Shown one piece after another: positions 14,782-41,220 of a stretch of 64,000 nucleotides of DNA. The position numbers were made by a program, and so were the translations under genes. The notes beneath the pieces were generated by a model, which saw nothing but the letters and a program-made list of their open reading frames with translations, had not been told where the DNA came from and made no database searches. Position 1 is the stretch's first letter. Every line of letters begins with the position of its first letter. Source of the DNA: Bacillota bacterium (GTDB lineage: Bacteria; Bacillota; Sulfobacillia; Sulfobacillales; Sulfobacillaceae); NCBI GenBank assembly GCA_021820965.1, contig JAKACZ010000022.1:1-64000 (forward strand), given 5' to 3'.

Positions 14782-14826
14782 GCCGGGTTACCCTCCTTTC
14801 GCATGCAAATGGTACGCGGATGTGGA

Positions 14827-17150: not shown

Positions 17151-17168
17151 GTTAATGGCTGCACGGTA

Positions 17169-17204: not shown

Positions 17205-17235
17205 CGTCACCGATTAATGGGAAGGGCGGTGACTC

Positions 17236-17976
17236 ATGATTGGGGGAGAACGGGTCGGGTCATTTTTTCGCATCAACCGGTGGCTCATTGTGAGCCTCGT
17301 CGCGCTGGGTGCGGCCGTGTATCTTTCTGCCCGTTACGTGCAACAGCTGTCCGTGGCCACGCCCAAGAGCACCTCCGCTCCCGCCGTTACCACCGTCTTG
17401 GTGGCCCGGACGCCGCTTACCGCCTACACCGTCATCACCGCGGCAGCGTTACGGCCTGAATCGGTGTTGTCCTCGGATGTGCCGCCGGGCGCACTGACCA
17501 GTATGAGTCAAGCTGTCGGGAAATGGACCAGCGTACCGATTGCTCCAGGGCTTCCCGTTGTGAGCTCCGATGTGTTCGCTCCTCAGTCGGCCGATGTATT
17601 AGCCTCTCGCATTCATCCGGGGGATATGGCAGTTGATTTGCCGCTGGGGGCCAATCAAGTCGTGGATGGGCTGATTGAGCCAGGAGATACCATTAGCTTG
17701 TTTACCACCATCACGGAGAAAGGCGGCCAACAGGCCACCGAAGACTTTCTCAACCAAGTCAAAGTGCTGGCTGTGAACGGCAGCATGGCTCCGCCGTCAT
17801 CGTCAACAGCCGGGCAAAACTTGACCTTAATTTTGGCCTTGCCGCCAAAAGAGGTGTCGGAACTTCTGTTCATGCAGCAAAAAGGGCCGGTTGAAGCGGT
17901 ACTGGATGCTCCCAATGCCACGACCACACCACCGCCGCCGTTTAACACATCTCAGTGGCAGAGTCCGGTTCGCTAA
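17236..17976 (+). CDS. cpaB: CpaB/RcpC-like pilus assembly protein with SAF domain
   Basis: A 246-residue protein anchored by one N-terminal membrane helix (WLIVSLVALGAAVYLSA, residues 16-32). A SAF domain follows (residues about 50-120: VLVARTPLTAYTVITAAAL ... GLPVVSSDV), then the RcpC region with VDLPLGANQVVDGLIEPGDTISLF near 134-157. CpaB proteins act outside the membrane in Tad pilus assembly. In diderms they work near the secretin, and in this secretin-free locus they presumably contact peptidoglycan or the platform. It is the second gene of the rightward arm; 13 bases separate it from the next gene. Confidence 0.8.
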   Translation: MIGGERVGSFFRINRWLIVSLVALGAAVYLSARYVQQLSVATPKSTSAPAVTTVLVARTPLTAYTVITAAALRPESVLSSDVPPGALTSMSQAVGKWTSVPIAPGLPVVSSDVFAPQSADVLASRIHPGDMAVDLPLGANQVVDGLIEPGDTISLFTTITEKGGQQATEDFLNQVKVLAVNGSMAPPSSSTAGQNLTLILALPPKEVSELLFMQQKGPVEAVLDAPNATTTPPPPFNTSQWQSPVR

Positions 17977-17989
17977 AGGAGATGATGGG

Positions 17990-19117: not shown

Positions 19118-19130
19118 GAGGTGAAGAGAG

Positions 19131-20513
19131 ATGTCGCTTCGGGACCGGATGCAGGAAGTGACGGTACACAAAACGGAGCTCAAACCGGCACCCCCAACCC
19201 GCCCGCCCAAGCTTGCGGCCCCGGTAAATCCGGTCGTTGCGCGCGAAGCGCCGGCTTACCTAAGTGAGCGTTTTTTCATCTTGAAAGCGGATGTGCAAAA
19301 GGCGCTGTTGGCACGCATTCAAAATCCCGAGGAGTTGACCCGGAAGCAACTTCGCGAGGAAATTCTGGTGCTGGTGGATTCAAATCCCGGGGTCTCGCCC
19401 ATTGAAAAAGATGCGCTGACCGAGGGTTTGGTCGACGAAATACTGGGATTTGGCCCGATACAACCCCTGCTTGACGATCCCGAAATCTCTGAGGTGATGA
19501 TTAACGGCTACGACCTCGTCTACGTCGAGCGCAATGGGCAGCTGATTCGGACCGGGGCGAGCTTTCGTGATGAGGCCCACCTCCGAGCGACTTTGGAGAA
19601 GATGCTGGCATACTCGGGGCGGCGCATTGACGAATCCAGCCCCATGGTGGATGCGCGCCTTCCCGACGGTTCGCGTCTGAACGCGGTATTGCGGCCGCTT
19701 GCTGTGAGCGGAGATGCCGTCACCATTCGAAAGTTTTCAAAAGATCCGTTCATTGTCGCCCAATTGGTTCAGATGGGCACGCTCTCCAAGAACATGGCCG
19801 AGTTTCTTGAAGCGGCCGTGCAAGGCAAGCTCAACCTGGTAGTATCGGGCGGCACCGGATCCGGAAAAACCACGACGTTAAATGCTCTCTCCGCCTTTAT
19901 CCCGCCAAATGAACGCATCATTACCATTGAGGACGCGGCCGAGATTCAACTACAGCAGGAGCACAAGGTCACGCTTGAGACGCGTCCGCCCAACATCGAA
20001 GGACGGGGCGGTATTCCTATGCGTGAATTGGTACGCAACGCGCTGCGCATGCGGCCGGATCGCATCATTGTGGGGGAGGTGCGCGGCGGCGAAGCGCTGG
20101 ACATGCTGCAGGCGATGAACACCGGCCACGAGGGCAGCCTCACCACGGTACATGCGAATAGTCCGCGCGACTGCCTCAGCCGTATTGAGACCATGGTGAT
20201 GATGGCCGGTGTGGAACTGCCCCTGACCGCGATTCGTTCGCAGATCGCTTCCGCGATTGACGTGGTCGTGCAGCAGGCGAGGCTCTTGGATGGGTCACGC
20301 CGGATTGTGCGAATCACCGAGGTTGTGGGCATGGAGAGCGGTGTTATTACCATGCAGGATTTGTTTGCTTTCGAACAGAGCGGCGTGGATGAATCCGGCC
20401 GGGTTGCGGGTCGCTTTGTCAGCTATGGCATTCGACCCCGTAACGCCGAGCGGTTAAAGGCCCAAGGCATCGACCTGCCGCCGCACCTGTTTGGCGTTGA
20501 GGGGGGTGCCTAA
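19131..20513 (+). CDS. cpaF: Tad secretion ATPase CpaF/TadA
   Basis: A 460-residue hexameric secretion ATPase that powers pilus extension, and in some systems retraction, at the cytoplasmic membrane. The N-terminal domain (about 45-200) leads into Walker A SGGTGSGKTT near 239-248, the Asp box (IITIEDAAEIQL near 263), Walker B (RPDRIIVGEVRGGEAL near 308) and the His box (TGHEGSLTTVHAN). All catalytic elements are intact. The gene follows tadZ by 13 bases with a good AGGAGGTG site, and its stop codon overlaps the tadB start by one base. Confidence 0.9.
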   Translation: MSLRDRMQEVTVHKTELKPAPPTRPPKLAAPVNPVVAREAPAYLSERFFILKADVQKALLARIQNPEELTRKQLREEILVLVDSNPGVSPIEKDALTEGLVDEILGFGPIQPLLDDPEISEVMINGYDLVYVERNGQLIRTGASFRDEAHLRATLEKMLAYSGRRIDESSPMVDARLPDGSRLNAVLRPLAVSGDAVTIRKFSKDPFIVAQLVQMGTLSKNMAEFLEAAVQGKLNLVVSGGTGSGKTTTLNALSAFIPPNERIITIEDAAEIQLQQEHKVTLETRPPNIEGRGGIPMRELVRNALRMRPDRIIVGEVRGGEALDMLQAMNTGHEGSLTTVHANSPRDCLSRIETMVMMAGVELPLTAIRSQIASAIDVVVQQARLLDGSRRIVRITEVVGMESGVITMQDLFAFEQSGVDESGRVAGRFVSYGIRPRNAERLKAQGIDLPPHLFGVEGGA

Positions 20514-21418
20514 TGGCGCTGCTGGGCCTAGCCGTGCTCTGGCCGCTGGTGCTGCTTGCGCTGGCCCTAGCGTGGCGGCAGGTGGCGCATGCGCGTTTGG
20601 TTAAACGGCGCGTGAGCTTAATTCGGCATGAAGTGATGCCGGTCGCTGATTTCGGCGAAACCCGCCGGCCGGGTCTGCGAGAACGTTGGAGCGCCGGTCC
20701 GGCTGCCGCCGCGCTGCGGCTTCGCATTAGCGAGTACATCCTCTTCCGAACGATTAGCTTTCTGGGTCCGTTCGTCGTCGGCTACGTGATACGCGGTGTG
20801 GTGGGCGGCCTGCTTTTAGGTGCGGTCGGTCTGGCCGTCCTAACCGGATACTTTCGCACCAAGCAAAACCGCTGGCTCAAGGATGCTGAAGCCGCTCTGC
20901 CGGAGTTTTTGCGGGGGGTGGCAAGCACGCTGCGTGCCGGATCCTCCCTGTCTCAAGCGATGGCCTTGGTAGCGGTGGATACCGCGGGAGCGTTGGGCGA
21001 TGAGGTGAGGCGGGTATTGAAACGGGAAGCACTGGGATTCAGCATCAACGAGACGCTGAATGAGCTTACCCAGCGCATCCCGTCCCGGGACCTGGCGCTG
21101 GCGGTGATGGCTATCACCATCCAGCGCGAGGTGGGAGGATCGCTGGCTGACGTGCTTGACAACATTGTGCAAACCATTGTTGACCGCCAGCGGCTCAAAT
21201 CCGAGGTCCGAGTACTGACCGCGCAGGGACGGTATAGCGGATGGCTTCTCACCGTGCTTCCGTTCGTGCTGGGGCTGCTTCTTTACTTCACCGACCCTTC
21301 CTATATGGGCGCGCTTATCTCGTCCCGTTTGGGCTGGGGCTTGTTGGGCGGCGCGGTGTTGTTGGTGCTGATCGGCGGCTTTGTCATCAACCGGATGGTG
21401 AAGGCGCCGGAAATGTAG
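20513..21418 (+). CDS. tadB: TadB-like pilus platform protein
   Basis: A 301-residue membrane protein of the GspF/TadB type that forms the inner platform on which the CpaF ATPase acts. Hydrophobic segments lie near residues 1-20, 82-108, 240-260 and 270-293. The cytoplasmic GspF domain lies between (LPEFLRGVASTLRAGSSLSQAM near 128 to VGGSLADVLDNIVQTI near 205). It is translationally coupled to cpaF through a TAATG overlap and followed by tadC. Confidence 0.85.
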   Translation: MALLGLAVLWPLVLLALALAWRQVAHARLVKRRVSLIRHEVMPVADFGETRRPGLRERWSAGPAAAALRLRISEYILFRTISFLGPFVVGYVIRGVVGGLLLGAVGLAVLTGYFRTKQNRWLKDAEAALPEFLRGVASTLRAGSSLSQAMALVAVDTAGALGDEVRRVLKREALGFSINETLNELTQRIPSRDLALAVMAITIQREVGGSLADVLDNIVQTIVDRQRLKSEVRVLTAQGRYSGWLLTVLPFVLGLLLYFTDPSYMGALISSRLGWGLLGGAVLLVLIGGFVINRMVKAPEM

Positions 21419-21439
21419 CTTGGGAGGAGGTGAGCGTGC

Positions 21440-22366
21440 TTGACATCGGCCATTTATATTCCGGCATTGCTGTTCGCCGTCGGCTTCATTGCTCTGGACC
21501 GGTGGTGGTCGGAGCACCGCGCCGCCCGCTGGCAGAAGACTCTGGATTCGAGGATGTCCGGGAATTGGGCGGTTGAACCGGGTGACGGTGATGTTCTTGC
21601 CGCGCCGTATCTCAAGCGGGTGATCATCCCTCAGTTAGAAGGCTTTCGCCGCCGGTTGGCCCTTCGGATTACACCGACCAATTTTCACGACGAGCTGGCG
21701 GAAAAACTGCAGCTGGCCGGCATCAAACAATCCGCCGAAGTTTTCTTTTTTACGCGGATCGCGTCGTCCTTGGTTGTGCTGCTAATCAGCAGTTTGGCCG
21801 CTCTGTCGCTCTCGAACCTGTCGCAGGACGAACGAGTGTTGGGCCCCATTGTGCTGACTTTGGTTGTTTATTTGTATCCCAGCGTGCACCTCAACACCCG
21901 GGCGCAGGCGCGGTTGGCTGAGATTGATCGGGAACTGCCGGAAGTATTTGACCTCTTGAGCGTGAGCGTCGAGGCCGGGCTGGCCTTCGACGGCGCGCTG
22001 AGAAAAGTCGTGAGCAACCTTGACGGGCCCGCACGTGAAGAGTTTTCACGGGTGCTGGCGGACATGCAGCTCGGTATTCCGCGAGCGGGGGCGCTAACCT
22101 CGTTGGCGCGCAGGACCCGATCGGCTCCGCTGCGCCGTTTTGCCGGGTTGGTCACTCAATCAGACCGCACTGGCGGCGGCCTGGGTGCCGCCCTCAAAGT
22201 GCAGGCCAGAGATATCAAGGAATATCGGGCAGCACGGGCACGGGAAAAAGCGGCCACCATCCCCATTAAAATTATCATACCGATGGTCGTCTTTATTTTT
22301 CCTGCAATGTTTGTCATAATTCTTGGACCGGCATTAATTTCGGTGCTCAAAACATTCCATCCCTAG
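21440..22366 (+). CDS. tadC: TadC-like pilus platform protein
   Basis: A 308-residue partner of TadB with the same GspF domain: ELPEVFDLLSVSVEAGLAFDGAL near 170-192 and the TGGGLGAALKVQARDIKEYRAARAREKA block near 245-275, followed by a final membrane helix (IIIPMVVFIFPAMFVIILGPALI). Membrane segments also lie near 8-20 and 105-150. The start is a TTG at 21440 with GGGAGGAGG nine bases upstream; no in-frame ATG or GTG fits this site. It completes the TadBC platform. Confidence 0.85.
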   Translation: MTSAIYIPALLFAVGFIALDRWWSEHRAARWQKTLDSRMSGNWAVEPGDGDVLAAPYLKRVIIPQLEGFRRRLALRITPTNFHDELAEKLQLAGIKQSAEVFFFTRIASSLVVLLISSLAALSLSNLSQDERVLGPIVLTLVVYLYPSVHLNTRAQARLAEIDRELPEVFDLLSVSVEAGLAFDGALRKVVSNLDGPAREEFSRVLADMQLGIPRAGALTSLARRTRSAPLRRFAGLVTQSDRTGGGLGAALKVQARDIKEYRAARAREKAATIPIKIIIPMVVFIFPAMFVIILGPALISVLKTFHP

Positions 22367-27744: not shown

Positions 27745-28428
27745 ATGACTCTGCGGGTTGCTCTCCTGACTGAATCGAAAATTGTCGCGTCGGGCCTGGA
27801 GCGATCATTAACCGAACAGTCCATGCTCGACATCGAAGCGATACGCTGGAACCTTGAGTATGTTTCCGACGAGTTGATCAAACCTTCTCAACGTCAGGTG
27901 GACTGCGTCGTCATCTATTCTGATGTGATTGCCAGACTTGAAGGAATGCAACTGGAGGACCGGTTGGATTCAGTACCCATCATCGTCATTTTGGACGAAC
28001 CCAGCCGTGAGCAGCTTTTACGAATCATGGCGTGGAATCCCCGAGTTGTGTTGACGCGTCATGCGGCGGAGGAGGTCCTGACGGTGGCCGCGTACCTTGC
28101 GACCGTGTCTGATGTGTTTGTGATGGCAGCGCCGGTGCTGAATGGCTGGATGGAGTTGCTGGCTCGAACAGAAAAACCCTATGACTTAACCACTCGGGAG
28201 TACGAGGTGTTGAGGTTTCTGAACTATGGTCTAAGCGACGCGCGGATTGCGGAACGCCTCTATCTGTCGGTGCATACCGTCAAGCAGCACGTGAGTCACG
28301 TGCTCCAGAAGCTTCAAGTGGCCAATCGCTATGATGCGGCCACAGTGGCGAGGCGCGAAGGGCTTGTTCCGGATGTGACCTTGGAGCGGGAACTGGTGCC
28401 GCGCCAGAAGTTGAGAGGGCGGCAATGA
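27745..28428 (+). CDS. LuxR-type regulator with receiver-like domain
   Basis: A regulator of about 227 residues. The N-terminal half resembles a NarL-type receiver (MTLRVALLTESKIVASGLERSL) but lacks a clear phospho-acceptor Asp in the usual loop, so control by phosphorylation is doubtful. The C-terminal HTH is typical: LTTREYEVLRFLNYGLSDARIAERLYLSVHTVKQHV near 153-188. The start is set at the ATG at 27745 in place of a TTG at 27733. Its stop overlaps the VKOR start by four bases (ATGA), so it is the first gene of the secretion/folding operon and probably its regulator. Confidence 0.75.
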   Translation: MTLRVALLTESKIVASGLERSLTEQSMLDIEAIRWNLEYVSDELIKPSQRQVDCVVIYSDVIARLEGMQLEDRLDSVPIIVILDEPSREQLLRIMAWNPRVVLTRHAAEEVLTVAAYLATVSDVFVMAAPVLNGWMELLARTEKPYDLTTREYEVLRFLNYGLSDARIAERLYLSVHTVKQHVSHVLQKLQVANRYDAATVARREGLVPDVTLERELVPRQKLRGRQ

Positions 28429-28844
28429 AGGGACTCATGGCTTTCTTCCTGGGCTTGGTGGCTGCTGTCGGGATGTACCTCACGGTGACTACCTTGACAC
28501 ATACAACCGTGGCTTGCCCGGCGGCACCTGGTGGATTGATAAACTGCGGCCGGGTTCTCTCCTCTTCGGGTAGCACAATTTTTTCCGTGCCCTTGGCCGC
28601 GTATGGTCTGGTGTGGACTGTCAGCCGAAGCCTTCTCCGCCGGCTGAGCGCGTTAGTCGCATGGTCTCTGGTGGGGTTCGGAGGCGTGGCCTGGGGTCTC
28701 TCCCATGAATGGATGGTGGGCTCGCTGTGCCTTTGGTGCACCATCATGCAAATTCTGATCGTAGCGGCCGTGGGCATCCAGCTGGGGTTGCTTAAGGCCA
28801 GGCGAAGCATTAATGCGCTCGACCGATATAAACAAGCCCATTGA
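28425..28844 (+). CDS. VKOR-family disulfide-generating membrane protein
   Basis: A 139-residue, four-helix homologue of vitamin K epoxide reductase. The active-site pair is C102-L-W-C105 (GSLCLWCTIMQ) and the shuttle pair is C31 and C41 on the outer loop (ACPAAPGGLINCGRVLSS), with the conserved Ser/Thr region just after. In bacteria VKOR replaces DsbB: it oxidises a thioredoxin-like partner and passes electrons to quinone. Such a partner with CxxC lies four genes downstream, and the secreted protein coded next has exactly two cysteines after its signal peptide. Translation is coupled to the upstream regulator. Confidence 0.85.
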   Translation: MKGLMAFFLGLVAAVGMYLTVTTLTHTTVACPAAPGGLINCGRVLSSSGSTIFSVPLAAYGLVWTVSRSLLRRLSALVAWSLVGFGGVAWGLSHEWMVGSLCLWCTIMQILIVAAVGIQLGLLKARRSINALDRYKQAH

Positions 28845-28862
28845 TGGATGGTGTTCCGTTCG

Positions 28863-28903
28863 TGCGACACGCTACAGTGCAGTCGCAACTACCATTCAAT
28901 GGT
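28863..28903. promoter_or_regulatory. Palindromic candidate operator before the secreted-protein gene
   Basis: Two inverted repeats lie in the 95-base gap after the VKOR gene: gcgac / gtcgc spanning 28863-28886 and the perfect palindrome accatt-c-aatggt at 28891-28903. They sit 37 bases or more upstream of the next start codon, a position suited to a regulator-binding site. The adjacent LuxR-type protein is the obvious candidate. Confidence 0.35.
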
Positions 28904-28939
28904 ATGTGCAATCTTGTGGTATGAAAGGACTGAAGTTGG

Positions 28940-29419
28940 ATGTTGCGAAAGATTTCGCGGGTGGTGCTGCCAGCCTTGGCTGTCGCCTTGGTGGGTGGTA
29001 CGGCTTACGGTTTCATGGCGAGCAATACGGTGTCGGCATCATATGCCGGTCAAGGCGCTGGCACAATCAGCGGGTACACGGTGCAGCACGTTCGCTACGA
29101 TTTGACACCGGGCGGGCGGCATATCCAGGAGGTGTTTTTGGAACTGAACAGTGCAACAAAATCGAAAATGCCTCAAGTTGACCTCTGGTTTTCTAACGCT
29201 AGCGGTAATTACGGCACGGATGGTGCAGTCTATCAATGTACTGTCGCTGATCCCTCTGTTGAGTGGGATGCGGCTTGTGTTCCCAATGGCGTCGCGGCGG
29301 CGGTATCGAGCGCGTACGATCTGACCGTGTCGGCGGCACAGGCAGGCCTGGTATTCCCTCAAACCTTGTCGAACCCTGCTTTGATAACCGTTGCACCGGA
29401 CGAAAGCCACTTGAAGTAG
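28940..29419 (+). CDS. Secreted protein with SipW-type signal peptide
   Basis: A 159-residue exported protein. The first 30 residues (basic MLRKISR, hydrophobic core, then VALVGGTAYGFMASNTV) follow the signal pattern of TasA/CalY-type proteins cleaved by SipW signal peptidases. The mature part is Thr/Ser/Gly-rich, predicted beta-sheet, with only two cysteines (C100 and C113) that could form one disulfide. A matching ER-type signal peptidase and disulfide machinery are encoded in the same operon. The sequence itself resembles no family I can name, so a fibre or biofilm-matrix role is inference. A strong hairpin follows the stop. Confidence 0.65.
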   Translation: MLRKISRVVLPALAVALVGGTAYGFMASNTVSASYAGQGAGTISGYTVQHVRYDLTPGGRHIQEVFLELNSATKSKMPQVDLWFSNASGNYGTDGAVYQCTVADPSVEWDAACVPNGVAAAVSSAYDLTVSAAQAGLVFPQTLSNPALITVAPDESHLK

Positions 29420-29423
29420 TTGT

Positions 29424-29446
29424 GACGGGGAGGTTTCCTCCCCGTC
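29424..29446 (+). terminator. Perfect hairpin after the secreted-protein gene
   Basis: A 10-bp GC-rich perfect stem (gacggggagg / cctccccgtc) with a three-base loop, 5 bases after the stop. It is followed by atctaata and not a T-run, so partial termination or 3'-end protection of the upstream mRNA is likely. It would give more substrate than processing enzymes. Confidence 0.55.
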
Positions 29447-29470
29447 ATCTAATATCTCGGAGGTTAATCT

Positions 29471-29635
29471 ATGTACAGGATTTTGACGCTAGCATTCTTG
29501 ACCCTTTTCGTATTACTGCTAAGCGGATCGTCCTATGCGCTTTTGGCCAATAATCAAGTTCCGTCGACCAACCTGGGGCTGACCACAATTCCCGTTCAGG
29601 GGCTGGCGCCTAAACAGTCCTCCAAGGGCTCATGA
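29471..29635 (+). CDS. 54-residue secreted peptide
   Basis: A small gene with a good site (cggagg) seven bases before its ATG and a stop that overlaps the next start as ATGA. The product opens with MYRILTLAFLTLFVLLLSG, a signal-peptide core, then SSYALLANNQV, which resembles the cleavage region of SipW-type substrates. The mature peptide would be only about 30 residues (ending GLAPKQSSKGS), with no cysteine. It may be an accessory subunit, an anchor or a starter of the same assembly. No family is recognised. Confidence 0.6.
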   Translation: MYRILTLAFLTLFVLLLSGSSYALLANNQVPSTNLGLTTIPVQGLAPKQSSKGS

Positions 29636-31245
29636 AGCGGGCGCGAATGTTTCTGGCGCTGGTGTTGGTGGCGGGTTTTGCATTTGTTTGGCACTGGCTC
29701 GGGCCCACGGCGTTAGGCGGCTCCATGAACTATCTCACAGTCTACGGCACCAGCATGAAGCCGCGCTTTACGGCGGGCGATCTGGTGATTGTGGAGCGCC
29801 AGGCCCACTATCATGTGGGGGAACTTGTCGCCTATCACAATAAGCAGCTACATTCCATCGTCTTTCACCAAATAGTGAAGAAGACGGGAAACCGCTACGT
29901 GTTCAAAGGGCTCAACAACCATTTTGAGGATGCTTACCATCCCGCCAAGAAGGACTTAATTGGCGCCTATTGGGCCTCGGTTCCCCACGCGGGCTTGTAC
30001 CTCCGACGAATGATGCGGCCATTGCCGGTTTCCATGTTGATGGCGTTAATTGCCTTCTTATGGTTGATGGACATGTTTCCCGCGTCGAGAAAAAAGGCGA
30101 AGAAAGGACGAAAGCGGATGAAGCACCAAAATCAAAGACGGATAGGACAACGGAGTTCGGCTCGGAACCTTTTGACGGGAATTGCCGGATTCTTGATCGC
30201 ATTGATGGCCCTCTCGCTCTATTTTTGGATAAGTGCGCTACGTGCGCCGCTCGTGCAGAAAGTATCCACCGCGTATCCCTTTACGGAGCGAGCGGCGTTC
30301 AGCTATCAGGAGAAGGTTCCGCTGAATGCGGTTTATAGCCAGGGTCTCTTGACCACCGGGCAGCCAATATTCATCAATCTGGTCCGTTCTTTTCCGATTC
30401 GCGTTCAATATTGGCTGACTGGCGGCTCGCAGCCGGTGTCTCATCTTCACGGAACTTACTCACTCGACATGGCGGTCCACGATAGTTTAGGATGGACACG
30501 TACCATTCCGCTGGTTTCCACCAGACCGTTTACCGGCACGACGATTCGTCTGGCGTCCACCGTGAGCACTGTTTTTCTGAGTCACTTGATGACTCAAGTG
30601 GATTCCCTAACCAAAGAGCCGTATTCTACTTACACCATGGACATTGTCGCCCATGTGGACGCCCGTGGCCAAGTGGGTTCGACTCCCTTGGTGACCTCCT
30701 TTAATCCGTCGCTGCCCTTCTCGATGAGTAATGTGGCGCTTCAAGTGACACCTCCATCACCTTTTATGACCATTCGCCAAACTTTGTCCCCCACCCACTC
30801 GTCCATGGTGCATGCCACTCAGCGATATCCCAATCAGTTCTCAGTGCTGGGCCTTAAATTGTCTTTGCCCGATGCCAAGCTGATCTTCGGTATTGCAAGC
30901 GGCGTCTTTTTGGTGGGAACGGCCCTCATGTTGTGGCTGCGCCGCCGCCTGTATCGATTAGACGATGAAAATCTACGCATTCAGACTCGGTATGGGAGCG
31001 CCTTAATCCCGCTGCAAGGATTCGAGAAATGGGATGACGTACCCAAGGCACGCGTGATGACCATGGAACATCTCGTCCGAATTGCTGAAAACGTGGACGG
31101 CGAAATTTTGCATTGGGGCTCCGAGAATTCACATATGTATTTTGTGGAAACCGGTGACCGAGTTTTTTACTACCAAGTGTCGGAACAAGTTCCCGATGTG
31201 CAGCCGGCGGCTCCGGCCCAGGCTGACCAGGGTGGTTCGTCGTGA
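29632..31245 (+). CDS. sipW: ER/archaeal-type signal peptidase I fused to a DUF5305-like domain
   Basis: A 537-residue fusion. Residues 1-150 are an S26B signal peptidase: an N-terminal membrane helix, nucleophile S41 in TVYGTSMKPRF, H79 in VFHQIVKK (His where most bacterial enzymes use Lys) and D100 in GLNNHFEDAY, then a second membrane helix. After a very basic linker (about 152-175) come another helix and an extracytoplasmic domain ending in a helix near 415-440 and a cytoplasmic tail. This second part resembles DUF5305, which occurs in archaea and some bacteria near such peptidases. Coupling to the 54-residue peptide gene and the nearby SipW-type signal peptide indicate its substrates. 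Confidence 0.78.
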   Translation: MKRARMFLALVLVAGFAFVWHWLGPTALGGSMNYLTVYGTSMKPRFTAGDLVIVERQAHYHVGELVAYHNKQLHSIVFHQIVKKTGNRYVFKGLNNHFEDAYHPAKKDLIGAYWASVPHAGLYLRRMMRPLPVSMLMALIAFLWLMDMFPASRKKAKKGRKRMKHQNQRRIGQRSSARNLLTGIAGFLIALMALSLYFWISALRAPLVQKVSTAYPFTERAAFSYQEKVPLNAVYSQGLLTTGQPIFINLVRSFPIRVQYWLTGGSQPVSHLHGTYSLDMAVHDSLGWTRTIPLVSTRPFTGTTIRLASTVSTVFLSHLMTQVDSLTKEPYSTYTMDIVAHVDARGQVGSTPLVTSFNPSLPFSMSNVALQVTPPSPFMTIRQTLSPTHSSMVHATQRYPNQFSVLGLKLSLPDAKLIFGIASGVFLVGTALMLWLRRRLYRLDDENLRIQTRYGSALIPLQGFEKWDDVPKARVMTMEHLVRIAENVDGEILHWGSENSHMYFVETGDRVFYYQVSEQVPDVQPAAPAQADQGGSS

Positions 31246-31868
31246 GCGTGACCCATGTTCCTTCCAGCCCACGCTGGCCGCTAATCGGAATGATGACGGC
31301 GCTGGGGATTTATGTGCTGGTGCTAGGGTTGTTTGTGTCTCTGCATAAGCCGGTTGAGGCTAAGGGCACCGCTGCTCCGCGTATCTCACACGTCTCGGCC
31401 TCAGGCGTTTATTCCCTGCAGGGGACACGGACGACATTGTTGGATGGGAAGCGAGGGGCTCTCCTCTTGCTAATGGCACCCTGGTGCAAGTACTGTGCCT
31501 ATGAAGACGCCTATGTTATTCCACGGTTGGCGCACCTCTCAGGGATCACCTTCGATGTGGTTGATGTGTCCAATCGCGGGGGATTTGCCAATCCGGGGCC
31601 GGTCAATCCCGCTTTTAGCGGCCACGATCAGATTGGCTCCCCTCTTTCTCTGCGCGGCCGGGAGCGGGTGATGCGGCGATACCGGACTCGGTTTGGACTC
31701 ATGGGTCCCGATGAACAGGTTGTGGTGGCCAATCCCCGCCAGTGGCCGGTGACATCATATCCGACCTGGGTCTTTGTTTCGAGCCGGGGCCAGATATTGC
31801 GAGTATTGCCGGGAGCCGTCACTAAGCCTCAAATGGACAGCCTGTTGAAGGAGATTTTGAAAATGTAA
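31242..31868 (+). CDS. Membrane-anchored thioredoxin-like protein
   Basis: A 208-residue protein with one N-terminal membrane helix (residues 13-33) and an outside thioredoxin fold. The redox pair is C82-K-Y-C85 in LLLLMAPWCKYCAYED, and the cis-Pro is in VTSYPTWVFVSSRG near 170. An insertion of about 45 residues lies between the CxxC helix and the cis-Pro strand. It is the natural partner of the VKOR protein and would oxidise or isomerise exported proteins, first of all the two-cysteine secreted protein of this operon. Its ATG overlaps the signal peptidase stop (ATGA-type), so the last genes are translationally coupled. Confidence 0.8.
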   Translation: MSVTHVPSSPRWPLIGMMTALGIYVLVLGLFVSLHKPVEAKGTAAPRISHVSASGVYSLQGTRTTLLDGKRGALLLLMAPWCKYCAYEDAYVIPRLAHLSGITFDVVDVSNRGGFANPGPVNPAFSGHDQIGSPLSLRGRERVMRRYRTRFGLMGPDEQVVVANPRQWPVTSYPTWVFVSSRGQILRVLPGAVTKPQMDSLLKEILKM

Positions 31869-32794: not shown

Positions 32795-32880
32795 GAAGGG
32801 AACCCCTACACTGAACCAACAGGAGGGGATATCTTCGCCCTCAAGGGCAGAGTTTTACGGCGCATCTGACAAAAGCTGAG
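32795..32880 (+). repeat. Hairpin repeat, copy A
   Basis: One of three related copies in this window (others 37425-37530 and 47498-47611). Shared landmarks in order are a cccc ... ggggata pair, a short GC stem with ccct or similar loop, and gagttttacggcgcatctga. This copy ends about 50 bases upstream of a pseudo-receiver gene. Confidence 0.6.
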
Positions 32881-32931
32881 GAGGCCGTTGAGCAGCAGAC
32901 ACTAGAGCGCTGCATTTCGGAGGCAACAAAC

Positions 32932-33309
32932 GTGGGCGTTTCGAATGGTGCCAAGCTTTATGTTGGCTATGTGGAATCGAGTCTCAATGATTTTCGTATT
33001 GTCTCCCGTCTCTTGGCACATCCCTCGATTGAGCTGCGGAAGGCTCTGGAGGGCGGCGTCCTCTTGAATGCAGATCCCCGTCTCTTACGGGAACTAGACA
33101 TGGTTTTGGCGCACGTTGAACTTCGGGATATGAACGGATTTCAACTAGGGCAAAAGCTCCGTGAAAAAATGCCGGGCTTGCTGTTTGTGCTAACGGGATT
33201 TGACCAGGAGTTTGATAAATTGGCACACGAAGCCAGTTTTGAGTTTTTAGCACTGCCGGATGTGAGCCCCGCGGCTTTGTGGCGACTGGTTGAAAACCAT
33301 CGCTCGTAA
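32932..33309 (+). CDS. Stand-alone pseudo-receiver domain protein
   Basis: A 125-residue CheY-like protein starting from GTG with CGGAGG upstream. The receiver pattern is clear in MVLAHVELRDMNGFQLGQKLREKMPGLLFVLTG (58-90), but the phospho-acceptor Asp position is occupied by His 61, and the acidic pair near the N-terminus (here YVES) is incomplete. It should therefore not be phosphorylated in the normal way and may work by binding another protein. No output domain is present. It stands alone, next to a membrane LuxR-type protein on the other strand. Confidence 0.65.
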   Translation: MGVSNGAKLYVGYVESSLNDFRIVSRLLAHPSIELRKALEGGVLLNADPRLLRELDMVLAHVELRDMNGFQLGQKLREKMPGLLFVLTGFDQEFDKLAHEASFEFLALPDVSPAALWRLVENHRS

Positions 33310-33514
33310 TCTTCGCCACCCTATTGGCGTGACGTTGACGGTTCATGCGCTTAATTTTCGACCTGTACAATAGGGCTCGGGGTTCCGCCGCTGCCACATT
33401 GCATACGTTCGGACCGCGGAACCTTCAATCCGCCGCCGTTAAAAGTCCTTACTCCCGGCTCGGGCTTTGGGGGGACATGGTTATGCGAGGCCGACCGCCA
33501 TCAGACCTGGGTCG

Positions 33515-33547
33515 ACGCCAGGATCCTTACCCCCCGAGTCCTGGCGT
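33515..33547 (-). terminator. Hairpin after the membrane LuxR gene
   Basis: A 9-bp perfect stem (acgccagga / tcctggcgt) with a 15-base loop lies about 20 bases beyond the stop of the leftward LuxR-type gene. It is a plausible terminator, although the T-run is on the plus side. Confidence 0.4.
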
Positions 33548-33567
33548 TTAGATCTTTGTGGCCGCCC

Positions 33568-34884
33568 TTATTGCTCCGCACTCCGTTCATGCTGCCGGCC
33601 AATGAGGTCCAATAGTTCCTGTCGGTTCTTCGTTTCGGTCTTGCGGTAAATGTTTTTCAAATGGGTCTTAAGTGTGTTGATTGATACGTAGAGCTCTCCA
33701 AGAATGGCCTGGTTGCTTTTTCCTTGTAACAAGAGCGACACAATTCGCCGCTCTTGGGGGGTCAGTTTGGCCCAGACAAAGAGCGCCTCGGGGTTCCCCT
33801 GATATCCACGCCGCGCTGGAGAGGCGGCACTCCCGGTCGAAAGCAAGAGCGGAGTCAAAGCGACAATCATTACGATGGCGACAAAGAGCCATGATGGCTT
33901 GGACCCGGTCAAGAGCGGCAGCCACCACCCGGCGCCAAACGCGGTTATAGTGACGCCCACGGCAATGCCGAGTTCCTCTGGGGCGCGGTAGAGCGAGTCC
34001 ACTAGCGATACGGCCCACCATGCGCTTAGTAAATTGGCCGCGACCAAAAGAGCAATTTTCCATCCAAAGATCGCGCCGCGGGTGTACGGGTCGAAGAACC
34101 CGAGGAGTGTGATGGCTAACAACACCGCGGATCCGTGTGCCAATAGTGATCGCTTGCGCGGTAAGGCAAAGGCAAGGACGGCTAGGACTAAGAACGAGAG
34201 GGTGGTCACAATAACGGTGGGTAGCCACGCTAGTGACGAGAGATTTGACGCGAGGCGGCTGATTTCCTCGGCCCCCATACCCAAGACGAAAAACAAACCA
34301 AGCGCGCCGGCCCCGGTCCGATTCGGGCGGACTGGCCTCAGCGTTTGTTTGCGCGGGAGGTCAGGCGGCAACGCAAGAGCCATGACATCGGCGGGGATCA
34401 TGCCCGCAGACAGCACCAACCGCCCGCTCGCCAATTCCAGCGACACCAGGGCAACCAGCAAGCCCGCCAAGAGGGTCATGCCGGCCCACCCGAAAATGAA
34501 TGGCAGCTTCTGCATTGAGAGGGGTTGAGTCAGTATTGCAAGCCAGAAAATAATGAGAGGGACGGCGGCAGCTAATTCAATCACGGCCCATATTGCCTCG
34601 GAGGAAGCGATCAGTCCGATTGCGGACAAAAGGAGGAACCATGGCAGGGCGCACCATCGAACCCAGCGCCAATGGCTCCTAAGCCAGTTGGCGCTCAGCA
34701 GAAGGCCACTAGAGATGAAGGTGGCGGCCAGGGCAGCGAGAAACACCGCGGTTGTCGCCGGCCCCACGGGCCAAGGGGTGAAGTGAATCATTTCAAGGAT
34801 CAAACCCTCCAACCACCCGAATAGAGCTATGGTATAGGCTATCAGTGAGAGTTCCTGGTGCCACGGCGAAATGCGTTCGGTCAC
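33568..34884 (-). CDS. Membrane-bound LuxR-type regulator (multi-helix N-terminus)
   Basis: A 438-residue protein with about twelve hydrophobic segments between residues 15 and 350 and a C-terminal LuxR helix-turn-helix: KLTPQERRIVSLLLQGKSNQAILGELYVSINTLKTHLKNIYRKT near 372-415. Proteins with 12 membrane helices fused to a LuxR domain are known mostly from Actinobacteria (Eggerthella-type) and are thought to act from the membrane. Here the membrane part could sense a small molecule or membrane state. The gene is divergent from a NarL-type response regulator, with a 128-base gap containing an AT-rich stretch. Confidence 0.7.
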   Translation of the reverse strand: MTERISPWHQELSLIAYTIALFGWLEGLILEMIHFTPWPVGPATTAVFLAALAATFISSGLLLSANWLRSHWRWVRWCALPWFLLLSAIGLIASSEAIWAVIELAAAVPLIIFWLAILTQPLSMQKLPFIFGWAGMTLLAGLLVALVSLELASGRLVLSAGMIPADVMALALPPDLPRKQTLRPVRPNRTGAGALGLFFVLGMGAEEISRLASNLSSLAWLPTVIVTTLSFLVLAVLAFALPRKRSLLAHGSAVLLAITLLGFFDPYTRGAIFGWKIALLVAANLLSAWWAVSLVDSLYRAPEELGIAVGVTITAFGAGWWLPLLTGSKPSWLFVAIVMIVALTPLLLSTGSAASPARRGYQGNPEALFVWAKLTPQERRIVSLLLQGKSNQAILGELYVSINTLKTHLKNIYRKTETKNRQELLDLIGRQHERSAEQ

Positions 34885-35012
34885 GATAAGAATCCTCCAT
34901 TGGGATTGACCTGTAATCTAGGTAGAATTTAATAGGTTGATGGGTCACCCTAATAGAGTGTTAACCCCTTAGTTCACCCGGGGGAATCCCCGGGGTTAGG
35001 AAGTGTGAGGCA

Positions 35013-35672
35013 GTGGCAGACATAATTCGGGTCGTGATCGTCGAGGACGAAGATCTCTTCCGCGATCTCTTGGCCTCATCACTTGCCGGTTTCCCGAAAA
35101 TTAGCGTGGTAAACGCCTATCGCGCCGGGGATGAGGCCTTGCGCCGTTTCTCCGATGACACTCCGGATGTCGTTCTGCTTGACATTAATCTGGGAGCAGG
35201 AGATACCGGAGTGCACATCGGTCTCAAAATGCGGCAGATGGACAGTGACGTCGGTATTGTCCTCCTATCGAACTATGATCAACCCGGGGTTCTAAGAACC
35301 ATTACCCAAAGCCAGGCTGCAGGGTGGTCGTACCTTCTCAAGAAATCCGTGGCCAACGCTAGTATCATCGTTCGGGCCGTCGAAGGTGCGCGAGCGGGGC
35401 TGATGATCCTCGATCCGCACCTTGTTCATGCATTCCAACCAACGCCCGCCGGGCTAGTGGCCAAACTTACTCCGCGCCAGCGCGAGGTTCTCGGGTTGAT
35501 GGCGCAAGGATACTCCAACGCTGGGATCGCGGAGAAGCTGGTCTTGCAGCCTAAGTCGGTTGAAAACACCATTTCTCAAATATACCAAGGCCTCGGGATC
35601 AACGCGTTGCAAGGCAGTATTCATGCGCGCGTAAAGGCGGCGCTTATCTTCTTGAACGAATGCACTCTTTAA
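35013..35672 (+). CDS. NarL/FixJ-type response regulator
   Basis: A 219-residue two-component regulator. The receiver is complete: EDED near 11-14, phospho-acceptor Asp 57 in DVVLLDINLG, and a conserved Lys in YLLKKSV near 108. The output is a LuxR helix-turn-helix (LTPRQREVLGLMAQGYSNAGIAEKLVLQPKSVENTI near 151-186). The start is a GTG with a weak GAGG site. The histidine kinase 264 bases downstream is the likely partner. It is read away from the membrane LuxR gene. Confidence 0.8.
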   Translation: MADIIRVVIVEDEDLFRDLLASSLAGFPKISVVNAYRAGDEALRRFSDDTPDVVLLDINLGAGDTGVHIGLKMRQMDSDVGIVLLSNYDQPGVLRTITQSQAAGWSYLLKKSVANASIIVRAVEGARAGLMILDPHLVHAFQPTPAGLVAKLTPRQREVLGLMAQGYSNAGIAEKLVLQPKSVENTISQIYQGLGINALQGSIHARVKAALIFLNECTL

Positions 35673-35936
35673 GGTGAGCGTGTGGCTGGCAAGGTTGTTG
35701 TTCTTATCAGGCTCCCGGTTAAGGAAGATCAATAATTGTTCGACAGGTCTCGAGTCGGGCTCTGTGCCAGGACTTTGGCAGTCTATGATTCGACACCAGT
35801 GCTGTCGAAGCGGAACTCTTAGCGTCGCACGATTTTCGTGTTGCAGAAAAGGCGAAGACAGGAAAGGTTTTATCGAAAGAGAAATACATGGGGACAGGTG
35901 TCGCTATAGAAAAATCAGAGAGGTATCCAACGCGTA

Positions 35937-37061
35937 ATGAATAGCAGATATACCGGATTGAGTCTCAATAATACAGCGGTTGCTGCGCGGCAGGCGATGG
36001 GGGTCGAGCATGTGCAAATCTGCCGTATTTCCCGTCGAACCAATAAACTCATGACTGTGGCGACAAGTTCTGGGGCGGATTCGGACCAACAAGTTGTCAT
36101 GTCAAGGCGGATTGACGACCCCTCGCTGACTCAACTGTGGCAAAACCACCGCCCGGGCAATCCAGTCGAGGTCCATTTTGGCAGAGTCGACCAGCGCTAC
36201 GCGGTTTTGCTGCCGATGGAGGTTGAGGGAAGCATTTGGGGTGTTCTTGCTTGTTTTCAGCGCCCGCCATTTTCCGACGATCAAAGAGAGCGGTCACGCC
36301 CCGTCGTCTTGTTGGTTGAGCAAGTGCTGGCTCAGCGCATACGTCGGTTAGGGTGTGCTCAGAGGCTAGGCAGGGCGCGTCGGATAGAAGGGAAGATTGT
36401 TGAGGCGGAGGAAAGCTTCCGGCGGGGTGTGGCGGAGGAGTTGCACGGCAGGGTTCAGACGAAGCTGCTGATGGTGTCGCACACCCTTGAGTGGTGCCGC
36501 CAGCATGTATCCGAGGTCGATGCGGTCCGGGTTAGGCTGTCGCAAGTGATACGGGATGTCGAATCCATCCGTGAGGAGGACGTCCGCAAACTCAGCCATA
36601 GATTGCATCCCGGCCTAATCCGTGTAGCATTGCGCCCTGCTGTCCATCATCTCGTCGCCACGTACTCGTCCGTCATGACGGTGGACGTTGAAGAATCAGA
36701 CGAGTTTTGTCATGCCGACAGTCCGATGGATAGCCTTATTCCCGAAGATGCGAGGATTGCAACCTACCGAGTCATTGAAGAGGCGCTCTCGAACGCTCTT
36801 CGCCACGGTCAAGCGCGACACGCCACCGTCCGACTGAATATCCGCCGCAACGCGTTGGTGGTTGACGTGTGGGATGACGGGTGTGGCTTTGTCGCTAAAC
36901 CGGGACCCGGCGGCATCGGGCTTGAATTATTGGACATCCGACTGGCAATTGCAGGCGGAAAACTCCGAGTTGGCTCCACCTCGCAGGGCACTCTCGTATC
37001 AGCAGAAATTCCTCTCAAGGGTAGACTTCTGTACACGTCCCCGTCCGTGAGTCAGGCGTAA
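35937..37061 (+). CDS. Soluble NarX-type histidine kinase with GAF-like domain
   Basis: A 374-residue cytoplasmic sensor kinase. Residues about 10-135 look like a GAF domain. The HisKA_3 dimerisation/phospho-acceptor region follows, with His 170 in RRGVAEELHGRVQTKL. The HATPase region has the N box EEALSNALRHG near 280 and the G1 box VWDDGCGF near 311, then GGIGLELLDIRLAIAGG. No membrane segment is present, so the stimulus is internal or arrives by diffusion. It probably phosphorylates the NarL-type regulator upstream. The 264 bases between them hold no gene. Confidence 0.8.
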   Translation: MNSRYTGLSLNNTAVAARQAMGVEHVQICRISRRTNKLMTVATSSGADSDQQVVMSRRIDDPSLTQLWQNHRPGNPVEVHFGRVDQRYAVLLPMEVEGSIWGVLACFQRPPFSDDQRERSRPVVLLVEQVLAQRIRRLGCAQRLGRARRIEGKIVEAEESFRRGVAEELHGRVQTKLLMVSHTLEWCRQHVSEVDAVRVRLSQVIRDVESIREEDVRKLSHRLHPGLIRVALRPAVHHLVATYSSVMTVDVEESDEFCHADSPMDSLIPEDARIATYRVIEEALSNALRHGQARHATVRLNIRRNALVVDVWDDGCGFVAKPGPGGIGLELLDIRLAIAGGKLRVGSTSQGTLVSAEIPLKGRLLYTSPSVSQA

Positions 37062-37424: not shown

Positions 37425-37530
37425 GACAGTAGAGGAAATCCCCAAGTCTGCCCAAAAGCAGGGGATATCTCTGAGCCACCGGAGTTTTACGGGGCATCTG
37501 GACAAAGCGGTGAAGCGCCCCTGGCGATTA
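37425..37530 (+). repeat. Hairpin repeat, copy B
   Basis: The second copy of the window's hairpin repeat. It keeps gaggaaatcccc, ctgcccaaaagcaggggata and gagttttacgg, and ends in gcatctgg followed by a degenerate tail. The middle GC stem is degraded here. Confidence 0.6.
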
Positions 37531-38214: not shown

Positions 38215-41049
38215 CTAACGATGTTTTACGGATGAAACCCAGGGTGCAAAGTGGTGATTCCAGGAAAGCCCGCTGACCATGACGACAACGGCGTCAACAA
38301 TGTGGTGAGGTCCGTTGACGTATCCTACCGCCTCATACTGCTCCGGGCTTTCTGACTTCCACATGGCACCGGTCAAGACATGGACCAACGACGCCTCATG
38401 TGGATTCGAGTACGCGCGGGCCATTGCTTGGGCCAAACCGAGCGGGGTAAGATAGTTTCCGAGTGCGCCTCCGGTCCAGTCATTGACAGTGGCAGGCTGC
38501 CCCCTGAGAAGCGCCTCTGCTTCCAAACCGGACTTGGGGCCGAGTGCGCTCGCCAGTTGCTGGGATGGCGCAAGGGAGATGACCTGGAGGCTTTGTCGGA
38601 TAAGTGCCGCCACCGAGTTGCCGCCCGTTTGGGCGACCGGCTTAGTATTGGCAGGCAGTGTTGAAACGCCCACGGGCCTCCCACCCTTAAGAGTGATACC
38701 GGCTTGCGTTAAAGCATCTTCAAACTGTTGCGTTGCCGTGAGTGCCGGATCAGGCGGAGCGATGATTTTAGTTGCCTGAAAGCCGGTAGGAATAGTTCCC
38801 GAGACGACGAAGGTGTTGCTGTTGAAAGCGAGGCTGGTATCGAGGGAGGGAGTCGTGCCTGCGGCGGTGACGGTGGTATTGTTTTGTACCGCTATGGGCG
38901 TGTCGGCTGGTGTTACCGAAATGTGTGCAGCGGTGCCCACCGTCGTTCCGTGAATAGACAGCCGGACGTGGTCAAAGCCCAGGTACAGCGGTGATGCGGG
39001 GGCGGCCCATCCTTCGCCTAACGCCTCCCAGGCGAGGCCTCCGGGCCATCGAGTTTGTTGGAATCCATGGCGAGGGTTCACATACTCGATCGGCCCGTTA
39101 ATTTGTTTGATGCCCTGACTGGCCACCGATTGGGCAAGGCTCGTGAGCGTTTTCGGGCCGAGGTCGTTGTTGTTGCCGTCGAGAACCAATGCACCGCGTA
39201 AGGTTCCCTGCACAACCGGACCCGCCGCCAGCACCTGAACCGCCGGCAAAATGGCTCCCAGGTGTTGAAGCGCCGCCATATCCAGCACGATCCGAGGGCT
39301 CAGCCCGGCCCGGATGAGCGTGCCGCCATTTTGCTGAAAGATGGGTTCCCCGGTGGCCACATTTACAACGGCCACTGCCGTGGAACTGCCATTATCGTAC
39401 GCCGGAATGTGAGCCAAGAGCGGTCGAAGCATGACCGGCAGACTTCCACTAATCGGTGCCGGTGTGGCGGTGGCGCTGACGGGAGGCACGTGGGGCCACG
39501 CCGCAATCTCGTTCATCATTTGCCCCACGGCAGAATTGGGAAAAGTGTTTTGGGATGTAGGGGTGCCATCGTTCAAGATGGCGAATGCGATGACATTGCC
39601 GTTTTCCGCCTGAACATATCCGGCAAGATTCCATTGGTTGGTTAAATTGCCGGGTTTCACAAAGATTTGGGTGTGAGCCGGAAGGGCCACCGTCCATGAC
39701 GGCGGGCAGAGAAATCCGCATGCGTGAGGATTGTCGATTTGAATCATAGAATGCTCAAACGTCGTGAACCAGGGCTGAGTGGCTGCGTAACGAAGAAGGT
39801 TCACGACATCTTGGGCGCTCATTTGGTTCAACGGGGAAAGCCCGGAACCGTCCACCTGAATACTCCCCGCACTTACGCCCACGCTCCGGGAGAAGGCCGA
39901 CATGATGCGTTCGGATCCGGAAGGCGACCCGGTTCCGTATCCGGGCACGCTGAGTTCGCGGTACAGGTTGTCCGCCATTTGATTAATGGAGTATCGATTT
40001 TGGATGGTGAGTTCCTGGCTTAGCCGCGGTGACGTGTGTGTGGCAACGGTCGTGAGGCCAGAAGGAAGGGTTGCGGCAGTCGTCGCGGGGCTTGAGACCG
40101 GGACGCCAGCAGCTCTCAGGGCGTTCTCGAAAAGTGATGCGGCATAAAGCGCGGGGTTTGAGACAGATAGCACGAACGGCCCCGCCTGGCTGTATTGGGG
40201 GATATGGCCGGTTACCACGATGCGGTTGGTCCCGAGGACACGCGTGACCCTGACGGCGGCCATGCCAGTGCCGCTGGTTGTGGCACGATTGATGACGTGG
40301 AAGTAGCCCGGATCCGTGGCCGCTCCATTAAACTTGAAGGTCACCATGGGGTGTTGGCCGGCCAGGCCGGAGCCCTGAACCCAGACCGCAACTTCGCTTC
40401 TTTCCGCCATGAGCGCGCTGACTCCGGCCGAATAATTTTGGGGAATTCCGCCAATGGGCCAGCCAATGCCGTAGGTGGGAGGAGCAAATTGAGAGCCGAT
40501 TCCAATCACCTGGCTGACACTTGGCAGCTGGGCGGCCACCTGGTTGGCCAGCACTTCGAGAGTTTTGCTACCGTTGGCTTCCAGCCAGGGATCGCCTCCG
40601 CCCACCAGGTAAATCGGGCGCGGTTGACCGGCAGCGACATCGCTGGGCACCATGACCTCAGTCTTATAGGTAAAATTGGGCCCGAGGGTGGCCAACGCCG
40701 CAGCCGATGTGAAGAGTTTGGTCACGGATCCAGGGGTCACTCGCAGTGTAGGGTGTACCGACGCCAGAACTTGACCAGTGCTTACGTCATAAGCGTAGGC
40801 GGACACCGTGGAATGCACCAAACCGGGATATCGAGCGAGCTTTAGCCAGTTTTGCGCCAATGTGTTGGGTGGGAGTGTTACTGCCGCCTTTCGGGCGGCA
40901 CTCACGGCGGGGCGGCTGGATGCCGTAAATATGCGGCTTGGCGGCTTCGCGGACGCTACCTTAATGTTGACGCCGGAGTGTGGGATCAGGATCCCTGTTA
41001 AAGCTGCCGCTACTGCTCCGGCTATCGTGCGAAGTCCTCCGTAAGACAT
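38215..41049 (-). CDS. Double-domain PBP4-type D-Ala-D-Ala carboxypeptidase (S13 family)
   Basis: A protein of 944 residues, twice the usual length of DacB/PBP4. It starts at the ATG at 41049, behind AGGGGG, with a signal peptide (LRTIAGAVAAALTGILIPHSG). The first S13 domain has the catalytic SVTK (S108-K111), an SIN-type motif (RYSINQMADNLY near 358) and KPGNLT near 465 in place of KTG. The second half repeats the fold (GSSTAVAVVNVATGEPIFQQNGG ...) but the serine-lysine motif has become SPRI, so it is probably inactive. Family enzymes trim or cut peptidoglycan peptides outside the membrane. Confidence 0.75.
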   Translation of the reverse strand: MSYGGLRTIAGAVAAALTGILIPHSGVNIKVASAKPPSRIFTASSRPAVSAARKAAVTLPPNTLAQNWLKLARYPGLVHSTVSAYAYDVSTGQVLASVHPTLRVTPGSVTKLFTSAAALATLGPNFTYKTEVMVPSDVAAGQPRPIYLVGGGDPWLEANGSKTLEVLANQVAAQLPSVSQVIGIGSQFAPPTYGIGWPIGGIPQNYSAGVSALMAERSEVAVWVQGSGLAGQHPMVTFKFNGAATDPGYFHVINRATTSGTGMAAVRVTRVLGTNRIVVTGHIPQYSQAGPFVLSVSNPALYAASLFENALRAAGVPVSSPATTAATLPSGLTTVATHTSPRLSQELTIQNRYSINQMADNLYRELSVPGYGTGSPSGSERIMSAFSRSVGVSAGSIQVDGSGLSPLNQMSAQDVVNLLRYAATQPWFTTFEHSMIQIDNPHACGFLCPPSWTVALPAHTQIFVKPGNLTNQWNLAGYVQAENGNVIAFAILNDGTPTSQNTFPNSAVGQMMNEIAAWPHVPPVSATATPAPISGSLPVMLRPLLAHIPAYDNGSSTAVAVVNVATGEPIFQQNGGTLIRAGLSPRIVLDMAALQHLGAILPAVQVLAAGPVVQGTLRGALVLDGNNNDLGPKTLTSLAQSVASQGIKQINGPIEYVNPRHGFQQTRWPGGLAWEALGEGWAAPASPLYLGFDHVRLSIHGTTVGTAAHISVTPADTPIAVQNNTTVTAAGTTPSLDTSLAFNSNTFVVSGTIPTGFQATKIIAPPDPALTATQQFEDALTQAGITLKGGRPVGVSTLPANTKPVAQTGGNSVAALIRQSLQVISLAPSQQLASALGPKSGLEAEALLRGQPATVNDWTGGALGNYLTPLGLAQAMARAYSNPHEASLVHVLTGAMWKSESPEQYEAVGYVNGPHHIVDAVVVMVSGLSWNHHFAPWVSSVKHR

Positions 41050-41220
41050 GCCAATCCCCCTGAAAATATTGTCGGTGATAAAACGCTGGCCATGCTGCAA
41101 AGGTTACGAGCGCTCTGTCACCGCTTGCATTTCCATGCGGCAGGAAGAACGCCTGCTTTGGTGAGGAGTTTTTCGGAGCGGGGTGTGCCCGCGTGGGCTT
41201 CGCGGTGCGCCGGTTAAGGT

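Follow-up and report, generated by a model that had tools for sequence, protein, structure and literature searches.

A candidate SipW-type, donor-strand fibre operon with its own signal peptidase and redox genes in the Sulfobacillales

TasA fibres form by donor-strand exchange, and TapA is their likely starter (PMC9674648). In B. subtilis, TapA and TasA have their first mature residues in common, and TapA donates its own to begin the fibre; the stop codon of tapA overlaps the start of sipW, and a TapA reduced to mature residues 44-57 still yields proper biofilms (PMC10151520). Archaeal threads likewise consist of beta-sandwich subunits linked by N-terminal donor strands, with a putative one-sided cap protein (PMC9715654). 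The locus considered here is a six-gene operon in a 64,000-nt stretch of a Bacillota genome of the order Sulfobacillales (assembly GCA_021820965.1, contig JAKACZ010000022.1, positions 1 to 64,000; hereafter the window). Its open reading frames all lie on the forward strand, together span 27745-31868 and encode a LuxR-type regulator, a VKOR-type oxidase, a small secreted protein (SUB), a secreted peptide (PEP), an endoplasmic reticulum (ER)-type signal peptidase (SIP) and a thioredoxin-like protein (TRX) (Table 1). To our knowledge, little has been learnt about the genes behind matrix fibres in the Chloroflexota and in this Bacillota order, and the operon provides a testable fibre candidate for both.

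We consider it probable that the operon makes a SipW-type, donor-strand, disulfide-stabilised extracellular matrix fibre that works much as TapA-SipW-TasA does, with a subunit that has no detectable homology to the known ones. The parts of this reading differ in strength: secretion through the SUB-SIP pair is well supported, fibre formation by SUB is likely, and the oxidation of SUB is plausible; the matrix function is presumed. A first-pass annotation had placed the six genes at these positions and on this strand, where they were found again, and had described most of them as overlapping, which holds for three of the five junctions (LuxR/VKOR, PEP/SIP and SIP/TRX share 4 nt each); gaps of 95 nt and 51 nt remain 5' and 3' of SUB. 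The arrangement is not a product of chance, since it recurs in related genomes.

The recurrence was followed in a set of 61 genomes, in the 42 genomes of the order of the window and in 400 evenly sampled Chloroflexota genomes. A single SIP query found no loci in relatives, and a SIP alignment found 10. Full-length SIP is present in 9/61 genomes. SUB occurs in 8/42 genomes of the order and in 28/400 Chloroflexota genomes, and every one of these (8/8 and 28/28) also holds SIP; in the ninth genome with SIP, the contig begins at this gene. Among the Chloroflexota, where the SIP fusion is found in about 30 of the 400 genomes, SIP was seen without SUB only where its match is partial or begins at a contig end (G906, G923). 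In nearly all loci read, SUB immediately precedes SIP (in L160 it lies about 1 kb upstream), and a few genomes carry further, unlinked SUB copies. The pairing proposed by the first-pass annotation is thus a dedicated one. Both ways in which that proposal could have failed, a secreted protein never accompanied by the peptidase and an unrelated C-terminus on a housekeeping enzyme, were examined, and neither was found.

SIP has the marks of an ER-type (S26B, SipW-like) signal peptidase: it matches TIGR02228 (archaeal/ER-type; 58.9 bits, 5.1e-16, cut-off 51.85) and Peptidase_S24 (6.3e-9), and it has Ser/His and no Lys dyad, with Ser41, His79 and Asp100 invariant in 9 homologues. The second region matches DUF5305 (PF17231) at 1.4e-6 and 28.4 bits against a cut-off of 29, over profile positions of about 118-217 only; in the genome search SIP reached 29.8 bits and its paralogue 33.1. 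Hydropathy and charge predict four membrane helices and an outside location for the peptidase and for about 220 residues of the second region. The C-terminal part had been described as an outside domain, which is right for the DUF5305 core; behind that core, the chain is predicted to cross the membrane once more, as the fourth helix, and to end in about 100 cytosolic residues. DUF5305 was not found mentioned in the literature searched, and the pairing gives it a likely place of work, as partner of ER-type signal peptidases in specialised secretion. Stand-alone DUF5305 genes (L100, L110, L118 and others) are widespread in other Bacillota, mostly beside an ER-type signal peptidase and secreted proteins and sometimes a sortase, a neighbourhood that is apparently undescribed. 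In one relative (G035) a TAG stop splits SIP between its peptidase and DUF5305 parts (L021:6625-6647).

SUB begins with a SipW-type N-terminus, GGTAYG followed across the predicted cut by FMASNTV. Neither SUB nor PEP matched a family in Pfam or NCBIfam searches; judged by sequence, SUB is an undescribed family of putative subunits common to this Bacillota order and the Chloroflexota. The mature domain has about 95-135 residues across the family. Two cysteines, Cys100 and Cys113 in the window SUB, are invariant in 11/11 SUBs of the order and present in 29 of 37 aligned SUBs; the eight without Cys are all from Chloroflexota. When the family member L134 was modelled with AlphaFold2 (AF2; 37 sequences), residues 20-96 formed a six-stranded immunoglobulin (Ig)-like sandwich with a predicted local distance difference test score (pLDDT) near 90, and the first 19 residues were disordered (pLDDT about 36). 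Cys 67 and Cys 77 of L134 lie on adjacent hairpin strands and, by strand register, are at most one residue away from being directly opposite. The disordered extension has the pattern FxAxNxV, in which F1, A3, N5 and V7 are conserved and positions 4, 6 and 8 vary. Such alternation is what a strand plugging one face into a groove would show; it fits donor-strand polymerisation and is no proof of it. SUB is thus predicted to combine the two parts of a donor-strand subunit, a free alternating N-terminal extension and a small beta-sandwich. A search of the PDB with the SUB profile gave no significant match, and fold searches returned generic Ig-like matches only, the best being VIA (Z 6.6), with the C region of Bap (7dm0) also in the list. 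TasA, threads and bundling pili are missing from these lists, which does not exclude kinship.

PEP looks like a stand-alone SUB extension, because its match to the SUB N-terminal profile beats shuffled sequences: 1/1000 of its own shuffles reaches the score of the window PEP, and 0/1000 reach those of three relatives. All four PEPs therefore resemble TapA in having a mature N-terminus like that of the subunit. PEP ends about 30 residues after the signal and does not contain the complete V-set Ig domain that TapA has; its stop codon overlaps the SIP start. At L020 and L023, two SUB genes take the place of SUB and PEP. By analogy, PEP would be a natural counterpart of minimal TapA, and a free donor-strand peptide would then be about the simplest conceivable fibre starter, in agreement with the working of shortened TapA in B. 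subtilis. The 51-nt gap 3' of the window SUB folds with a minimum free energy of -22.9 kcal/mol (z -4.4); among the 25 loci with a gap long enough for folding, 23 have a stem-loop behind SUB at z of -2 or lower. Stem-loops behind a major subunit gene often raise that gene's share of the mRNA.

These elements suggest the following working model. SUB would be exported via Sec and cut by SIP between AY(A/G) and F, and the freed extension (FxAxNxV...) would fill the open Ig-like sandwich of a neighbouring SUB, which would allow head-to-tail polymerisation. PEP would do the same for the first subunit and thereby start (or end) the fibre, as the TapA N-terminus does for TasA. The stem-loop would keep SUB mRNA in excess over that of PEP and SIP, and the LuxR protein would set expression of the operon. 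VKOR may re-oxidise TRX, or the two may act in series; either way a disulfide could form between the SUB cysteines across the beta-hairpin and lock the small domain, the direction of electron flow being an assumption of the model.

Redox genes within a few kb were counted for ten loci of the order: VKOR is present at five (window, L020, L021, L024, L027) and TRX at five (window, L021, L024, L027 and L028, where the contig ends just after TRX), which places redox genes at six loci. VKOR has the four redox cysteines, with a CxxC among them, and the membrane character of its family (Cys31, Cys41, Cys102 and Cys105 are invariant among homologues). The two WCxxC cysteines of TRX are likewise invariant, and TRX has a conserved insert, SxxGGxAxPGPxxPxFxGxD. 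In the window genome, three VKOR genes and five TRX-like matches were counted. Each of its two SIP loci has one VKOR and one TRX, and the remaining copies lie away from both. The second SIP locus (L024) consists of a divergent LuxR gene, SUB, a 60-aa PEP, SIP, an EAL-GGDEF gene, TRX and VKOR. TRX of the window and of three other SIP loci group together (88/84, with long branches). That SUB is the substrate of the redox pair is suggested by their co-location and by the Cys pair in every SUB of the order.

The kit of the relatives is wired to cyclic di-GMP (c-di-GMP), the usual biofilm signal. A c-di-GMP-I riboswitch lies directly before SUB, on the same strand, in 6 of 21 Chloroflexota loci, and no further c-di-GMP riboswitch was found in these 21. 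Two Chloroflexota loci encode a SIP extended by an EAL domain on the predicted cytosolic side; the EAL of L149 keeps most catalytic motifs, and that of L157, which is without the Asp pair, may be a sensor. An EAL or EAL-GGDEF gene is present at six loci of the order (L021, L022, L024, L026, L027, L028), and the EAL-GGDEF proteins keep most motifs. Together with the fusions, the riboswitches in front of SUB suggest that c-di-GMP is linked to fibre production at two steps, RNA and maturation. This link, the likely role of PEP and the stem-loop behind SUB go beyond the first-pass annotation. Separately, c-di-GMP-I riboswitches stand 3' of a gene with a SUB-like domain, before another gene, at L073:4323-4406, L074:5782-5865 and L075:2764-2847.

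Several observations weigh against the fibre reading. First, the AF2 model of the window SUB (11 sequences) is poor, with a pLDDT of 51; it was not used for fold claims, and the fold was for that reason taken from a 39%-identical relative. Second, solved fibre proteins do not stand out in the fold searches, and hhalign of SUB against TasA-like proteins of the same order gave a probability of 0.1%. Third, PEP was found only in the window, at the paralogous locus L024 and at L022 and L027. Fourth, four loci of the order have neither redox gene, none of the Chloroflexota loci read has one, and the tree does not support the VKORs at SIP loci as one clade. Finally, the window operon itself has neither a c-di-GMP riboswitch nor an EAL or GGDEF gene.

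The fourth point bears on the alternative that VKOR and TRX serve the cell generally rather than SUB, with TRX perhaps reducing or repairing instead of oxidising. The patchy presence of the pair, the eight Chloroflexota SUBs without Cys and the non-monophyletic VKORs would all agree with it. However, the genome has separate copies of both genes elsewhere and still carries a pair at each of its two SIP loci, and no SUB of the order has lost either Cys, which makes a general role an improbable alternative, if the best surviving one. Since the redox copies are local and the TRXs group together whereas the VKORs do not, this order seems to have gained a local oxidising pair, perhaps repeatedly, in a system that lacks one elsewhere. 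The disulfide machinery that had been ascribed to the operon is therefore its own in the sense that VKOR and TRX adjoin SUB-SIP in several genomes of the order, besides the copies elsewhere, but it is not a general property of the system.

SUB could also be a monomeric secreted protein (an adhesin, enzyme inhibitor or signal) that has its own signal peptidase and forms no fibre. It is known here from sequence and a single-chain model, and the generic Ig-like sandwich is found in monomeric domains as well. A monomer would nevertheless leave unexplained a conserved, alternating extension that is disordered in the model, a PEP that is a separate copy of this extension, and the stem-loop behind SUB. 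Further, at L073-L075 a longer protein contains a SUB-like domain from which the extension is missing, and a profile match places an LPXTG anchor on the L073 protein. PEP (a donor without acceptor) and this protein (an acceptor without donor) would answer the needs of the two fibre ends, although they were not found together in one genome. With the close parallel to tapA-sipW-tasA added, we regard the monomer as slightly less probable still than a general redox role.

A third possibility, that the operon is merely a diverged TasA/camelysin operon, draws on a shared logic and on shared components: a SipW-type signal, an ER-type peptidase and a small partner encoded alongside. It is unlikely, as the missing Pfam and NCBIfam matches of SUB extend to Peptidase_M73 (TasA/camelysin), the hhalign comparison found no kinship and the mature SUB domain is smaller than TasA. 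Least probable is a surface layer or coat processed by SIP and the redox pair: the subunit is small, presumably abundant and disulfide-bearing and has a weak fold match to a Deinococcus S-layer protein, but one extension and one groove predict linear polymers, and S-layer proteins are usually large, with cell-wall binding domains that SUB lacks.

If the fibre reading is taken one step further, the operon could stand for a second, independent class of donor-strand matrix fibres in bacteria, marked by a very small subunit of about 95-135 residues, a naturally free donor-strand initiator peptide, disulfide locking by an operon-encoded VKOR/thioredoxin pair and, in some Chloroflexota, a cytosolic EAL end of SIP through which c-di-GMP could act directly on subunit maturation. 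We offer this broader idea tentatively, as possible rather than probable.

Table 1. Positions of the operon genes, the elements between and within them, and c-di-GMP-related features of relatives (window coordinates unless a locus is named)
Feature	Position	Strand	Remarks
LuxR-type regulator	27745..28428	+	227 aa from ATG; GerE 6.6e-15
VKOR-type disulfide oxidase, membrane protein	28425..28844	+	139 aa; PF07884 2.5e-9
SUB, secreted (putative) subunit	28940..29419	+	159 aa; 2 Cys; mature form about 29012-29419
Predicted donor-strand extension of SUB, FMASNTVSASYAGQGAGTI	29012..29068	+	alternating conservation; low pLDDT in family model
Stem-loop, GTGACGGGGAGG-TTT-CCTCCCCGTCAT	29422..29448	+	between SUB and PEP
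PEP, secreted peptide	29471..29635	+	54 aa; mature start LLANNQVPSTNLGLTTIPV
SIP, ER-type signal peptidase I fused to DUF5305 region	29632..31245	+	537 aa
TRX, membrane-anchored thioredoxin-like protein, WCxxC	31242..31868	+	Pfam Thioredoxin_2 5e-5, below cut-off
c-di-GMP-I riboswitch before SUB	L148:8576-8664
c-di-GMP-I riboswitch before SUB	L151:5699-5789
c-di-GMP-I riboswitch before SUB	L158:2609-2699
c-di-GMP-I riboswitch before SUB	L160:9776-9865
c-di-GMP-I riboswitch before SUB	L163:8742-8831
c-di-GMP-I riboswitch before SUB	L166:5198-5289
Signal peptidase-DUF5305-EAL fusion, Chloroflexota	L149:2258-4738	+	826 aa; EAL 6e-57
Signal peptidase-DUF5305-EAL fusion, Chloroflexota	L157:6006-8408	-	800 aa; EAL 3e-46

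The genomic setting of the operon varies among relatives. LuxR-type genes adjoin most related loci and are divergent in several; among the ten loci of the order, LuxR and VKOR precede the other genes in the same direction only in the window. The window LuxR gene has a possible TTG start at 27733, and the N-terminus of its product is receiver-like but poorly matched. The operon sits after ctaA, which in its close form is single in the genus. Beside ctaA, the congeners G004 and G005 have a canonical SipW-TasA-like cluster, and G002 and G003 have what appear by eye to be sugar-nucleotide and glycosyltransferase-type genes. From ctaA to a DUF309-like gene, the genes are adjacent in G007, 2.2 kb apart in G006 and 10.7 kb apart in the window, which is suggestive of a variable surface island bounded by the two genes. 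Other genomes of the order do have canonical SipW-TasA loci. That SUB and TasA-like proteins exclude each other was considered and set aside, as 0/42 genomes have both, yet chance would give this with p 0.12.

Other features were seen along the way. Near SIP, some Chloroflexota loci (L039:8413-8859, also L120, L124 and L131) encode small proteins that combine RTX-like glycine/aspartate repeats with a SUB-like signal and are possible further SIP substrates. Elsewhere in the window, a Tad-like pilus cluster was recognised by eye at 13624-22366 (TadE/G-like, CpaB-like, two CpaE-like, CpaF, TadB, TadC). An imperfect direct repeat (about 80%; 32816-32883 and 37452-37515), without a match in Rfam, flanks a regulator cluster at 32932-37061. 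A 961-aa protein at 38215-41100 (- strand) apparently has two tandem PBP4-type carboxypeptidase domains, the second diverged, and a kdp operon followed by two tandem KdpD-like sensor halves occupies 54667-61591.

Four described or recognisable systems come closest to this operon. The stand-alone DUF5305 genes of other Bacillota also place a DUF5305 protein near an ER-type signal peptidase, but as two genes and not a fusion, with no SUB and no VKOR or TRX match in the loci read. Archaeal threads and bundling pili share beta-sandwich subunits, N-terminal donor strands and a putative cap, but belong to other families, and the threads gain strength from isopeptide bonds and glycans, in place of the likely disulfide of SUB (PMC9715654). 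The sipW-TasA/CalY-BC1280 (CapP) region of B. cereus similarly brings together SipW, fibre subunits and a chaperone-like partner; CapP differs in being larger, with a DUF4047 domain and repeats, and no redox genes are seen there in the portion of the source used here (PMC13082335). The nearest parallel is tapA-sipW-tasA, which like the window operon has a dedicated ER-type signal peptidase, a subunit with a conserved mature N-terminus, and a small partner that shares this N-terminus and overlaps the start codon of the peptidase. In contrast to it, SUB is unrelated by sequence and smaller, PEP has only about 30 mature residues, SIP is fused to DUF5305, and the operon has its own VKOR and thioredoxin, with EAL/GGDEF genes or riboswitches added in relatives.

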